The notes under the pieces are model-generated. The model searched no databases. It was not told the origin of the DNA and saw only the letters and a list, made by a program, of their open reading frames with translations. A stretch of 34,103 bases of DNA from a virus, in the IMG/VR virus record IMGVR_UViG_3300023179_000299, positions 1 through 34,103 of that record; one strand, 5' to 3'. This document shows positions 4,360 through 16,184 of the stretch, piece by piece (the stretch's first letter is position 1; each line of letters starts with the position of its first letter). The position numbers were made by a program, and so were the translations under genes.

Positions 4360-5569
4360 AAGACGCAAAAAACTGGAAGCAGTTGTCGAAGCGTACAACG
4401 ATGTGACGCGCTTCAAAAGCGTTGACGATTGCGCCAAGCACTTCCAAGTCACTGACAGACACTTCAGACGGATGCTGGCACACGCCAAGCAAGCAGGCTT
4501 CAAACTCAAGCCAAGGCTTCTGGTCAACGAAGCCATCAAAGACCACGAGACACGCTCGGACAACAAGTACGCCAGAGAGAACATGGTTCTCAAAGCACAG
4601 CTCAAGCAATTCCGTGAACAACTGGACGCCAGCCACGAAGATTCCATCTCAAATGAGCGTTTGGTGCGCATCATCCGAAACGCAGCAGATACAGAGCCAC
4701 AGTGCGATAAAAGTTGGTTGACGTACAAAGGCAAAGGCGACTCGTCTAAGAGCGTTCCTGTGCTGTTTTTGAGCGACCTTCATTTCGATGAAGTCGTTGA
4801 ACCTGCACAGGTGGAGTTTGTGAACGAGTACAATCGAGAGATTGCCTCAAAAAGAATCAAAGCAGTATTCAACAATGCGCTCGACCTGCTGACGAAGAAA
4901 CTCAAAGCCAAGTATGCCGGAGCCGTTGTTGCACTCGGAGGCGACCTTCTCTCAGGCAATATCCATGAGGAACTTGCTGAAACAAACGAGGCGACAATCT
5001 TGGAAAGCGTGTTGGCCTTGACTGACATCTTGCATGCTGGCCTTCAGCAGATGGTCGACGAGTTCGGCAAGCTGTACGTTCCATGTGTTGTTGGCAATCA
5101 TGGTCGGATCCACAAGAAACCGCGAGCGAAGTTCCGTGTTCAGCAGAATTATGAATGGATAATTTATCAGCTTCTCGCACAACGATTTGCAGGTGATTCA
5201 CGAGTCACGTTCGAGATTCCAGACAGCACAGACGTCACTTTCAAGATATTCAACACGACTTTCCTGCTGACTCATGGCGACCAGTTCAAAGGCGGCTCAG
5301 GAATCTCTGGCATCTTCACGCCATTGATGCTTGGTGCTTCAAGGAAGCTCAAGCGCCAGCAAGCCGTTCAAAAGCCCTTCGATGTGATGATGGTTGGTCA
5401 CTTTCATTCGTACATTCACACAAGCGGATTGATAACAAATGGCTCAACTAAGGGTCTGGACGAATGGGCTTATTCTATGAATTTTGGATATGAAGAACCA
5501 CAGCAGGCAATGTTCTTAGTGCATGAGAATCACGGCATCACAATCCGAATGCCAGTGCTTTGCAAGTAA
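4334..5569 (+). CDS. Metallophosphoesterase with HTH-like N-terminal region
   Basis: 411 residues from ATG 4334, preceded by GGAGGCAC (4320-4327). All calcineurin-type phosphoesterase motifs are visible: D148-x-H150 (SDLHFDE), GGD204 with LLSGN, G254-N-H256-GR, H314 (THGD) and GHF-H358. These coordinate two metal ions. Family members cleave phosphodiesters or phosphomonoesters, including nucleic acid ends. Residues about 25-60 carry an HTH-like segment (SVDDCAKHFQVTDRHFRRML), followed by a coiled stretch to about residue 105, which suggests DNA or RNA binding. Related two-part proteins occur in other phages. The substrate is unknown. The stop codon directly abuts the stop of the convergent rusA gene, with no terminator between. 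Confidence 0.9.
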   Translation: MTTKKLTPERRKKLEAVVEAYNDVTRFKSVDDCAKHFQVTDRHFRRMLAHAKQAGFKLKPRLLVNEAIKDHETRSDNKYARENMVLKAQLKQFREQLDASHEDSISNERLVRIIRNAADTEPQCDKSWLTYKGKGDSSKSVPVLFLSDLHFDEVVEPAQVEFVNEYNREIASKRIKAVFNNALDLLTKKLKAKYAGAVVALGGDLLSGNIHEELAETNEATILESVLALTDILHAGLQQMVDEFGKLYVPCVVGNHGRIHKKPRAKFRVQQNYEWIIYQLLAQRFAGDSRVTFEIPDSTDVTFKIFNTTFLLTHGDQFKGGSGISGIFTPLMLGASRKLKRQQAVQKPFDVMMVGHFHSYIHTSGLITNGSTKGLDEWAYSMNFGYEEPQQAMFLVHENHGITIRMPVLCK

Positions 5570-12413: not shown

Positions 12414-12474
12414 TTGGTCAGCCTTTCCTTCTTGTGCTAGTCCTTGTTGAACAATGATTCTTCAAGGAGTTCAT

Positions 12475-13719
12475 ATGACCAGCAAGAAGCTGAAAGTTGA
12501 GAACTGGCCAATCGACAAGCTGATTCCATACGCCAGAAACCCACGCAAGAATGACCAAGCTGTTGAACAAGTCGCGGCTGCCATCAGGGAGTTTGGCTTT
12601 CGAGTGCCGATTGTCGCCAAGTCCGATGGCTTGCTGGTGGACGGTCACCTCCGATTGAAAGCTGCACAGAAACTTGGATTGAAGGAAGTGCCGGTCGTCT
12701 TAGCTGATGACCTGTCAGATGCACAAATCAAAGCGTTCAGAATCTCGGTTAATCGCATGGCTGAACTCGCTGAGTGGGATAATGAACTGCTGGCTCTGGA
12801 GTTTGCCGAACTCAAAGACCTTGGCTTCGATACCAGCTTGACTGGCTTTGATGAGGCGATGGTTTCAGAAATCATGCCAAACAAAGCGGAACCACTGACA
12901 GACGAAGATTCTGTTCCAGAAGTCGATGAACAATCGCCACCAAAAACAAAGATTGGTGACGTGTGGATTCTGGGAAATCACAAAATAATGTGTGGCGACT
13001 CAACCGACGAAGCAATGGTGGCGAAGCTGATGAATGGCGTGAAGGCAGATATGGTTTTCACTGATCCGCCGTATAATCACGCCTCTGATGATAAAGGAGT
13101 TGCGGCTTCTGTAAGTAAAGCGCACAAGAACTTGATGGATTCGGAATGGGATAAAAACTTTGATATTCGCAAAACTCTTTCAATCATCGACATGTTCAAA
13201 TCTGAAAATTCAACTGTCTACATCTGCACATCTTGGCACTTAGCTGGCGATATTTGGAAATGGAGCGCAGTCCACAGCAAAACAGATGGATATTGCGTTT
13301 GGCATAAACCGAATCCGATGCCATCGTTGATGAAAAGACATTGGACTTGGGCCAGCGAATTGATCTGCTATGCTACTTTTGGAAAGCATACTTTCAACTT
13401 TCCAGATCAAGGCCACGCTTCATCAGTATGGACTTTCACTAAAGTTTCAAAGTGCGATCTTCATCCGACAATGAAACCGATCTCGGTTCCTGAACACGCA
13501 ATCACGCACAGCTCAAAGCAAGGCGCTTCTGTTCTTGACCTCTTCCTCGGCTCCGGCTCCACACTCATTGCCTGTGAGAAAACCGGACGCAAATGCTACG
13601 GCATGGAACTCTCGCCTCAGTACATTTCGATCATCATCCAGCGCTGGCAGGAATACACAGGCAAAGAAGCGCACCTGGAAGAAACCGGAGAAACCTTCAA
13701 CTCAATTGCGTCAAGATGA
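12475..13719 (+). CDS. ParB-like domain fused to DNA methyltransferase (beta class, N6-A or N4-C)
   Basis: 414 residues from ATG 12475, five bases after AAGGAG. Residues about 8-110 are a ParB/Srx-like domain (LIPYARNPRKND, then LVDGHLRLKAAQKLG). The catalytic motif D197-PPY lies in the middle. The late block HPTMKP...LDLFLGSGSTL (D355 onward) binds S-adenosylmethionine. Catalytic motif before the SAM motif marks the beta class of amino-methyltransferases. Such fusions are common in phages and usually lack a cognate nuclease, so protection from host restriction or regulation is likely. The recognition sequence cannot be read from the protein. Confidence 0.92.
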   Translation: MTSKKLKVENWPIDKLIPYARNPRKNDQAVEQVAAAIREFGFRVPIVAKSDGLLVDGHLRLKAAQKLGLKEVPVVLADDLSDAQIKAFRISVNRMAELAEWDNELLALEFAELKDLGFDTSLTGFDEAMVSEIMPNKAEPLTDEDSVPEVDEQSPPKTKIGDVWILGNHKIMCGDSTDEAMVAKLMNGVKADMVFTDPPYNHASDDKGVAASVSKAHKNLMDSEWDKNFDIRKTLSIIDMFKSENSTVYICTSWHLAGDIWKWSAVHSKTDGYCVWHKPNPMPSLMKRHWTWASELICYATFGKHTFNFPDQGHASSVWTFTKVSKCDLHPTMKPISVPEHAITHSSKQGASVLDLFLGSGSTLIACEKTGRKCYGMELSPQYISIIIQRWQEYTGKEAHLEETGETFNSIASR

Positions 13720-13725
13720 TGCAAT

Positions 13726-13754
13726 TTGAGATTCTGTTCGGTTCAAGGTAAACA
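13726..13754 (+). promoter_or_regulatory. Candidate promoter for the replication gene
   Basis: TTGAGA (13726-13731) and TAAACA (13749-13754) are 17 bases apart. The -35 match is good and the -10 match is weak. The -10 box lies inside the first copy of the 28-base repeat, so a repressor bound there would block it. Confidence 0.4.
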
Positions 13755-13767
13755 CGAACCAGCTTCA

Positions 13768-13804
13768 AGAAAAGAAAAATCCCGGCTGACTGCAATCACC
13801 GGGA
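13768..13804 (-). terminator. Intrinsic terminator on the minus strand
   Basis: On the minus strand TCCCGG and CCGGGA form a 6-bp stem with a 13-base loop (13804-13780), followed by TTTTTCTTTTCTT. On the plus strand there is no T-run after the stem. No minus-strand protein gene ends here. Confidence 0.65.
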
Positions 13805-13834
13805 ATGGAACAAACCAGATGTGATGGTCGGTTC
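13768..13834 (-). ncRNA. Candidate short antisense-orientation RNA (about 67 nt)
   Basis: A minus-strand promoter-like pair, TTGCAA and TATGTT with 17-base spacing (13869-13841), would start transcription near 13834. The minus-strand terminator at 13804-13768 would end it. The product would be a short RNA just upstream of the replication initiator, on the opposite strand. Lambda makes a similar short RNA (OOP, 77 nt) beside its O gene. This is a prediction from signals alone. Confidence 0.35.
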
Positions 13835-13840
13835 AAGGTG

Positions 13841-13869
13841 AACATAGTTCAGCTTTGCCTCCGTTGCAA
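13841..13869 (-). promoter_or_regulatory. Candidate minus-strand promoter overlapping repeat copy 2
   Basis: -35 TTGCAA (complement of 13864-13869), spacer 17, -10 TATGTT (complement of 13841-13846). Each hexamer matches consensus at four positions. The -10 box lies inside the second 28-base repeat. Confidence 0.35.
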
Positions 13870-13889: not shown

Positions 13890-14780
13890 GTGTCAGAAGA
13901 ATTCGATTCCGAACTAGAAACCGGATTTACAATGATGCCGAACGTGGTCTGGGATATTGGCCTGTCTGGCAACGAGATGATCGTGCTTCTTAGGATTATC
14001 TATCGAGCTGGCTTGCGAGGTCAGTGCTTTGAATCCAGAGTCAGCATAGCTAAGGCTTGCGATATTCATGAGCGAACTGTCGGAACAATTTTTGCGGAAC
14101 TAGAAAGCCTAAATATCGTGCAAATCATAAGGCGGCGAGCTGAGAACAAGCCGAATCTCATTCGCGTCCGACATCCTGCCGCTTGGATAAGCAAATGTAA
14201 AAAAACTGCAACGAAGGAGCAACCTCAGGATCTCAGATCCGGAGGGCTTAGGATCTCAGATCCGGAGCCTCCGGATGTCAGATCCTATGGAACTATATTC
14301 CCTGAACTAAACTCCATTGAACAAGATTCCTTTCTTAATACGGTTGCAACGGCTGAAGCCGCTGCGCCTCAGAAGGCCATTGAGCCAGAAGTCTTGATTG
14401 ATGAGCCAAAAGCCAAAGCTCAGAAGTCAGCAGGTTCGCTTATCTTTGAAGCATATCGAGAAGCCTATCTCAGACGGTACAACGTGGAGCCGCTGAGAAA
14501 CTCCAAGACCAATGGTATTTGCAGCCAGATTTCCAAACAATTACCGCTTGATGAAGCCATTGCCTTGATGCACTTCTTCCTTCAGCAGAACGTCGCTTTC
14601 TACATCCAGCGCGGCCATGCCATTCAGCTTGCCTTAGGCGACCTTCAAGCCTTGCGAACAAATATGTTGAACAACCAAGCAATGTCTTCTAGGCAGGCCC
14701 AACTTGCTGACAAGCAGCAGGCACAGAAAAACGCTTTGCAGAACTATCTGGAGAATAGGGAAAAGTATGCTCTCAAGTAA
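13890..14780 (+). CDS. Replication initiator (lambda O-like layout)
   Basis: 296 residues from GTG 13890, five bases after AAGGAGG. Residues about 15-100 form a winged-helix DNA-binding domain (GNEMIVLLRIIYRAGL..., ESRVSIAKACDIHERTVGTI). Residues about 112-170 are a linker, encoded partly by the iteron array. Residues about 180-280 form a helical domain seen in phage replication proteins (IFEAYREAYLRRYNVEP, then FYIQRGHAIQLALGDLQALR). DNA-binding domain, linker carrying the origin, and C-terminal partner-binding domain is the plan of lambda O, which binds its own gene and loads helicase via P. Function is inferred from domain layout and the iterons. Confidence 0.75.
   Translation: MSEEFDSELETGFTMMPNVVWDIGLSGNEMIVLLRIIYRAGLRGQCFESRVSIAKACDIHERTVGTIFAELESLNIVQIIRRRAENKPNLIRVRHPAAWISKCKKTATKEQPQDLRSGGLRISDPEPPDVRSYGTIFPELNSIEQDSFLNTVATAEAAAPQKAIEPEVLIDEPKAKAQKSAGSLIFEAYREAYLRRYNVEPLRNSKTNGICSQISKQLPLDEAIALMHFFLQQNVAFYIQRGHAIQLALGDLQALRTNMLNNQAMSSRQAQLADKQQAQKNALQNYLENREKYALK
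14227..14286. other. Candidate replication origin: palindromic iterons inside the initiator gene
   Basis: Two exact 18-base copies of AGGATCTCAGATCCGGAG (14227-14244 and 14250-14267) lie 23 bases apart. A third, inverted and slightly diverged copy follows at 14268-14286. Each unit is centred on the near-palindrome GGATCT-C-AGATCC, and the three centres are spaced 23 and 22 bases, about two helical turns. The block contains five GATC sites. The following 55 bases are AT-rich. The placement in the initiator linker matches the lambda origin. Confidence 0.7.
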
Positions 14781-15363
14781 AACCATTACTTTTATCGTTG
14801 GAGCCTTTGCGGCCAATGGCATCGAGCTGAATGAAGGAGCGATGGCAGTTATCGAGGCCGCTTTAGAAGACCAGGACGAGGAACTTATTCGCAAAGCTAC
14901 AACAAACGCCTTAAAAAAAGGCGAACGTATGAGCTTGGCCGCCATCAACAAAGAGTTGGCCGAACTCAAAGGCGAAAGAGTGTCAAAGAAGGACGCTGCT
15001 GCATTGGCAGAGAGAGCCTTTGCCTTGCTTCGATTTCCTCAACGAACAGGCCAGGGCGCGGCGGAAAGCCATGATTCAGAGGCATACGCTCTGCTGACCT
15101 CAATCGGTTCTTGGTGGGATGTTCACAATCGTTCCGAGTTCGACTTGAAAGGACTTAAGCAAGACCTTAAGGACATGGCACCAAAGGTTATCAAAGAACG
15201 CCAGCAAGCTGCCTTGACTGCCTCGACCGATGAAAGACTCAAGCTCGCTTCTGAAATGCAGCCGCGGCCTTCTTTGGAAGTCTTTGTGCCCGATCCAGAT
15301 ATTGCTCGGAAAATAGAAGAAATGACGAAAGCTAATCTTGCAAAGCTGAAGGCAAAGCGATGA
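14767..15363 (+). CDS. Possible helicase-loader-type replication protein (position-based)
   Basis: 198 residues from ATG 14767, behind AGGG and overlapping the initiator gene by 14 bases. The protein is helical and charged. It starts SSKTITFIVGAFAANGIELNEG, has a Lys/Glu-rich centre, a Trp-Trp segment (SIGSWWDVHN) and a basic C-terminus. I recognise no domain. The gene directly after an O-like initiator is often a helicase loader (P or DnaC type), but there is no visible Walker A motif, so a P-type role is only a guess from position. Confidence 0.75.
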   Translation: MLSSKTITFIVGAFAANGIELNEGAMAVIEAALEDQDEELIRKATTNALKKGERMSLAAINKELAELKGERVSKKDAAALAERAFALLRFPQRTGQGAAESHDSEAYALLTSIGSWWDVHNRSEFDLKGLKQDLKDMAPKVIKERQQAALTASTDERLKLASEMQPRPSLEVFVPDPDIARKIEEMTKANLAKLKAKR

Positions 15364-15824: not shown

Positions 15825-16184
15825 ATGGAAATCGAACTGATTCAAAAGATTCTGCCGCTTGATTGTGGAAAGACCGGCAAGCTGGTGCTGCTCATCATGG
15901 CCGCACACCTCAGCGAGAAACAATGGTTCGTAAAAGACCTGATGGAAATCATTGGCGGAGATGCCAAGACGGTTCGCTTCGCATTGCGTGAGCTTGTGGA
16001 CAGAAGGCTTGTGAACCTGGTCGGCAAGACGGAATTGCAAGCCAACATCTTTGAACTCAACGTCAAAGAAGTCCTTAAGTACCAGCTACCATACCTCGAC
16101 CGAGATACGCGTTTCGCTTTAGAACGTCTTGGGCGTCAAGCTCAACAACACCATCTTCCTCGCAGCACTCGACCAAAGCCTTGA
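15825..16184 (+). CDS. Small winged-helix protein
   Basis: 119 residues from ATG 15825, behind AGAGG. Residues about 15-70 fit a winged helix (GKLVLLIMAAHLS, KDLMEIIGGDAKTVRFALREL, then the wing RRLVNLVGK), so it probably binds DNA. A TGTACACT word 26 bases upstream resembles the -10 words before the capsid and tail-tube genes, without a good -35. The last 110 bases overlap a convergent minus gene, and the final 20 residues (Gln/His/Arg-rich) look like unconstrained read-through. Confidence 0.7.
   Translation: MEIELIQKILPLDCGKTGKLVLLIMAAHLSEKQWFVKDLMEIIGGDAKTVRFALRELVDRRLVNLVGKTELQANIFELNVKEVLKYQLPYLDRDTRFALERLGRQAQQHHLPRSTRPKP

Follow-up and report, generated by a model that had tools for sequence, protein, structure and literature searches.

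A probable lambda-type iteron origin inside the O-like initiator gene of an uncultured phage

Iteron origins located within O-like genes are already known from phages lambda, P22, L and MD8. The lambda iterons, which bind dimers of O beside an AT-rich region that melts, constitute a proven origin (PMC5043065); as annotated, they lie within gene O at spacings of 20, 24 and 23. Gene 18 of P22 and gene 18 of phage L are divergent O-like genes with different gene-specific repeats, each set presumably being recognized by the protein that its gene encodes (PMC8022706). For Pseudomonas phage MD8, an origin has been inferred from repeats in the O-like gene, which were read as supporting the replication assignment (PMC8508860). 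Among plasmids, the RepA_N initiator of pSK41 has a winged-helix N-domain that binds Rep boxes located midway along the initiator gene and a C-domain that contacts the DnaG primase, whereas pPR9 represents a natural swap of a PF13730-type N-domain onto a C-domain that is > 97% identical; its compatibility is altered, and the replicon is compatible with that of pSK41 (PMC5703833).

Here we describe a similar locus in a virus record from IMG/VR that is 34,103 bases long (hereafter the window, i.e. the whole stretch of DNA that was analysed). We assign a probability of about 0.88 to the reading that positions 14228–14340 are the phage replication origin, bound by its own initiator at three iterons. 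Like the lambda ori within gene O, this locus combines palindromic iterons 20–24 bp apart, in the linker-coding part of a winged-helix initiator gene, with AT-rich DNA after them and an overlapping downstream gene in the loader position. Unlike lambda, it has three iterons with a 13-bp core instead of four iterons of 18 bp, a C-domain of another family (phrog_11527) and no homologue of P; the unit sequence is also unrelated to that of lambda, as the preliminary description of this DNA had judged. P22 and phage L similarly carry gene-specific repeats inside divergent O-like genes, but the repeat sequences are different and their partner, gene 12, codes for a DnaB-type helicase. The nearest annotated protein relatives (about 25% identity) come from the Pseudomonas phages MD8, Riah and LESphi3, which also have strong linker repeat arrays, although with more copies and other units; in MD8 and D14E, a P-like loader is found downstream. 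What is less usual here, on sequence comparison, is that near-identical phages differ in the cassette and that the register is base-exact across different unit sequences.

The initiator gene and its iteron array

The features of the locus are as follows (iterons and AT-rich stretch without assigned strand).

13890–14780, plus strand: O-like replication initiator gene, 296 aa (PHROG matches; HTH_36 near the cut-off)
13890–14210, plus strand: N-terminal winged-helix DNA-binding domain, residues 1–107 (AlphaFold2 model, fold matches)
14070–14108, plus strand: predicted recognition helix, residues 61–73 (from the model; poorly conserved across three register-matched relatives)
14228–14240: iteron 1, 13-bp palindrome GGATCTCAGATCC, half-site pairs 6/6
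14251–14263: iteron 2, 13-bp palindrome GGATCTCAGATCC, half-site pairs 6/6
14273–14285: iteron 3, 13-bp palindrome GGATGTCAGATCC, half-site pairs 5/6, flank CGGAGG inverted
14291–14340: AT-rich stretch (70% AT), putative unwinding element
14430–14777, plus strand: C-terminal domain, kept at 98–99% identity by L002 and L003 irrespective of their N-domains
14767–15363, plus strand: downstream gene that overlaps the initiator gene and sits where lambda has P; candidate helicase loader (by position; exchanged with the O C-domain in L109 and L110)

Residues 7–116 of the initiator match PHROG O-like and initiation families (phrog_270, 391 and 678; E-values of 1e-7 to 2e-8), of which phrog_391 and phrog_678 are common to this protein and lambda O, in line with an O-like winged-helix N-domain; residues 163–288 match phrog_11527. 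The Pfam match to HTH_36 (E-value of 2.7e-5) falls just short of the Pfam cut-off. An AlphaFold2 model of the N-domain, built from 14 sequences, is a winged helix with a pLDDT of 78.7; the single-sequence model of the whole protein had a pLDDT of 42 and was set aside. Fold matches to the N-domain were generic winged helices, none with an E-value below 0.001; plasmid initiator N-domains (4pql, 4pt7, 5kbj) were among the best Foldseek matches, and no solved lambda O N-domain was among the fold matches listed. A PDB sequence search with the full initiator gave no matches, and one with the N-domain profile gave uninformative weak matches to MarR-type proteins and to the chromosome replication initiation protein 2vn2 (E-value of 0.032). 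The initiator shares with those of RepA_N plasmids an N-domain winged helix and mid-gene sites, and the pPR9 N-domain is of the PF13730 HTH type matched here. However, those are plasmids and this is a phage. The Pfam scan listed no match to the RepA_N domain (PF06970) at E-values up to 0.1, which speaks against membership in the RepA_N family, and the structural resemblance is common to many winged-helix proteins.

The three palindromic cores span 14228–14285 of the plus-strand gene 13890–14780, with a spacing of 23 and then 22 bp, in agreement with the earlier reading of repeat units centred on palindromes 22–23 bases apart. The two exact 18-base repeats reported there (AGGATCTCAGATCCGGAG) were found at 14227–14244 and 14250–14267, and the third copy (14268–14286) is inverted and diverged, as had been stated: its minus strand reads AGGATCTGACATCCGGAGG, and the inverted pair of copies is 89% complementary over 19 nt. 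Equally correct was the placement of the repeats in the linker-coding part of a winged-helix replication gene. The array encodes residues ~113–132, so that several repeated sites with a period of ~20 bp lie inside the initiator's own gene between the N- and C-domains. The AT-rich stretch said to follow the repeats does adjoin the iterons, although it is moderate: its best 50-mer (14291–14340, 70% AT) is at the 98.8th percentile of the window. Points that weigh against an origin include this moderate AT content and the presence of only three iterons, the third of them imperfect. Cumulative GC skew, suggested as a check, has its minimum near 11 kb and no extremum at 14.2 kb; it lends no support to the origin, and skew as origin evidence is confounded by gene orientation.

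Allowing up to 2 mismatches, the pattern GGATSTSASATCCGGAG is present at five places in the window, all of them within the array; 100 shuffles yielded it 0.04 times on average and never more than twice. We counted 35 local repeat pairs (14-mers with ≤ 2 mismatches, 16–80 bp apart) in the initiator gene, whereas 1,000 synonymous-codon shuffles, which preserve the protein and the codon usage, contained 1.0 on average and 23 at the most. Among the 100-bp bins of the window, the one at 14201 ranks first with 70 pair-ends, against 16 in the next best. In their fixed register, the three 13-mers score a similarity of 37/39, which drops to 21 or less when the register is slid along the gene. Neither spacing (23 or 22) is divisible by 3, which puts the units in different reading frames, and the peptides encoded by the array copies differ (parts of QDLRSGG, RISDPEP and PDVRSYG); therefore, a repeated protein motif cannot explain the array. 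Codon shuffles, slid registers and frame shifts together led us to reject both chance and protein-driven repeats.

Among related O-like genes, significant repeats (repeat content reached by ≤ 2 of 200 codon shuffles) were found in 60 of the 88 genes surveyed, 28 genes failing the repeat test; this census comprised 72 genes from IMG/VR contigs or one MAG and 16 named or window-family genes, and it is partly redundant, so these are not 88 independent cases. All 46 significant-repeat genes with a recognized C-domain motif have the array upstream of that motif. Lambda O, used as a positive control, yielded 16 pairs (0/200 shuffles) and likewise has its array upstream of the C-domain motif.

Changes of the repeat unit and exchange of the DNA-binding domain

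Outside the window itself, the L001 gene is identical over the protein, and L014 is the same contig as L001. Besides L014, the exact iteron 17-mer has two matches in IMG/VR (L013 and L015), both in unrelated genes and attributable to chance. A relative with the same iterons and a somewhat diverged gene, as needed for a synonymous-site test, was looked for, and none was found. Two relatives have the window's array register. The N-domains of L002 and L031 are 57% and 52% identical to that of the window, respectively (the L032 protein is the same as that of L031), and in all three genes the three 13-mers start at exactly gene positions 339, 362 and 384, with the anchor ATGGAACTA kept at gene position 398. 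The units, however, differ from those of the window, being GGTAAAATCTACT-like in L002 and TGCAACCATTGCA in L031. Their similarity across the three 13-mers is 27/39 in L002 and 39/39 in L031, versus at most 20–22 when the same register is slid along the rest of each of the three genes, and for none of them was the observed value attained in 20,000 shuffles of the array region. L002 fails the general repeat test and passes only the fixed-register one. A base-exact register with changed letters requires a constraint at the DNA level.

The preliminary description would have been contradicted by repeats that were absent or scrambled in close relatives that keep the gene. In relatives the unit sequence does change, but it always changes into another self-consistent array, and the change tracks the DNA-binding domain, not the rest of the gene, in two cases in identical base register. 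Across the register-matched N-domains, invariant residues number 0/4 in the turn (59–62), 3/13 in the recognition helix (61–73) and 11/19 in the wing (74–92); the stretch 93–107, outside the core, is variable too. Judging from the model, the predicted recognition helix is thus among the least conserved parts of the N-domain. This co-inheritance of N-domain and units supports the view that the iterons are probably recognized by the protein that their own gene encodes.

Linker residues are not conserved among the relatives, and the exchange boundaries described below are near the linker, as they might be if the repeats were a by-product of a low-complexity linker or of a recombination joint, devoid of function at the DNA level. 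Such an origin of the repeats appears highly improbable, given that the units stand in different frames, exceed the codon shuffles and hold a base-exact register while their letters change; in addition, the exchange partners have no common repeat sequence, so the repeats cannot serve as recombination homology.

In L003, the exchange is evident from the DNA alignment: identity to the window is 99.4% up to 13817 and 91.6% from 14344, and in between there are a different N-domain and different iterons, followed by a C-domain 98% identical to that of the window. The L003 array has five CAAAATG-centred copies, the best of which is the palindrome CCGCCAAAATGGCGG, and no AT-rich stretch directly 3' of it. 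L001 and L003 derive from the same metagenome. Conversely, L109 and L110 align with the window up to 13892 (the start codon), and similarity resumes at 15202, inside the next gene; their N-domain and iterons are those of L003, with 96.7% DNA identity over 517 bp, and are fused to a different C-domain. A fourth N-domain is found in L004, where TATCCTGTTGCCC...AACAG occurs four times ahead of an AT-rich tract. The Pseudomonas phages Riah and D14E share an N-domain segment identical at 80/80 positions, and the linker array is significant in each of them. Their C-tails differ, however: that of D14E ends in TDWTDQVQL (TDWIYGVDL in lambda O) and is accompanied by a P-like loader gene (phrog_109), while in Riah both the C-tail and the downstream gene (phrog_6028) are different ones. 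Thus, as far as can be judged from these alignments, the N-domain and the iterons move together as one specificity cassette. The simplest reading of this handful of cases is that there are two exchange units, the DNA-binding domain with its iterons and the C-domain or tail with the loader.

Could the repeats be sites for some other factor? Upstream of the initiator, positions 12454–13719 encode a fusion of an N6/N4 DNA methyltransferase with a ParB N-terminal domain, and GATC occurs twice in each of iterons 1 and 2, which would be compatible with binding by this ParB-domain protein or with Dam-type GATC control. Nevertheless, L003 keeps the DNA of the methyltransferase at 99.4% (in the part that it holds) and has wholly different repeats, and the array units of L002, L003, L004 and L031 are all free of GATC; we give this explanation almost no weight. 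The alternative that the array is an operator, through which the initiator autoregulates its operon while the origin lies elsewhere, fits the co-change with the DNA-binding domain as well, which indicates probable recognition by the gene's own product and not initiation as such. But an operator would be oddly placed ~340 bp inside the gene, with no promoter-like sites near the array above shuffle expectation, whereas the AT-rich stretch adjoins it and the same layout is a proven origin in lambda (PMC5043065). An operator in place of an origin is therefore very unlikely.

The lambda-type iteron origin proposed in the preliminary description is thus supported by its place in an O-like gene, the palindromes at 22–23 bp, the adjacent AT-rich DNA and the comparison of relatives. 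These loci form a natural series of initiators with one geometry, at least three site sequences and DNA-binding domains that are 46–57% identical, complemented by swaps on near-identical backbones; they provide material for finding the recognition-helix residues that choose the iteron and for testing mutual exclusion of replication types. It is conceivable, although we put it forward with some doubt, that the N-domain and iterons constitute a plug-in specificity cassette, limited near the start codon and the array end and exchanged in base-exact register between otherwise near-identical phages of the same habitat, so that several mutually non-interfering replication types persist, perhaps because phages that evade interference with their origin by co-resident prophages or satellites are favoured.

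Proposed initiation and the downstream gene

By analogy with lambda, initiator dimers would use the N-terminal winged helix to bind the three palindromic iterons, which stand about two DNA turns from one another midway through the initiator gene. The bound initiators would then form an O-some-like complex and open the AT-rich DNA at about 14291–14340, and the C-domain, probably with the product of 14767–15363, would recruit the host replicative helicase. On this reading, a group of uncultured phages gains an origin with good computational support.

In Pfam and PHROG, no P-like loader was matched by the gene at 14767–15363; lambda P and the D14E gene both have such a match (phrog_109). The only similarity seen for the window's gene is a weak profile match, to genes that occupy the corresponding position. 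The locus was not classified as a strict lambda O-P module because no recognizable P homologue follows. The C-domain belongs to phrog_11527 and that of lambda O to phrog_391 and phrog_2357; Riah matches both phrog_11527 and full-length phrog_391, which hints at a possible distant link between the two C-domains. By sequence, the C-domain and the downstream gene of the window are not recognizably those of lambda, and the latter is a candidate for a helicase loader of an undescribed family. In the gene after O (14767–15363 in the window, 3378–4022 in L109), the front part is exchanged with the O C-domain and the last ~160 bp are kept.

Leader element and neighbouring genes

Several other elements were seen around these genes. 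The AT-rich tract after the L004 iterons (4966–5005) consists of three tandem GATATAAAGAGTAA-like units, 11–13 bp apart, an arrangement that recalls the unwinding elements of plasmids. Immediately before its O-like gene, L003 has a small ORF (884–1285, 133 aa) that lacks a C-domain and clearly resembles the N-domain of the O protein of L003 itself, possibly a truncated competitor or regulator of iteron binding; in L109, an ORF in the same place (2143–2511, 122 aa), also without a C-domain, has no PHROG family match. About 1 kb downstream of O, the window encodes a small stand-alone winged-helix protein (15825–16184) with a weak match to GntR.

A 31-nt repeat is found upstream of O in two copies (13735–13765 and 13825–13855; 77% identical), the second of which includes the palindrome GTTCAAGGTGAAC; it may be operator-like or part of a leader structure, and L001 and L002 retain only the 5' half of the second copy. 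A leader element ~40–110 bp before the O gene (13781–13850 in the window) is also present upstream of O in L001, L002, L003, L031, L109 and L004, and is retained even where the N-domain differs. It has no Rfam family at the gathering score. The element comprises a hairpin whose stem pairs 13781–13785 with 13799–13803 (CCCGG/CCGGG), followed by the conserved ATGGAACAAACCA, and the hairpin pairs change compensatorily between phages (G-C to A-U and G-C to C-G).
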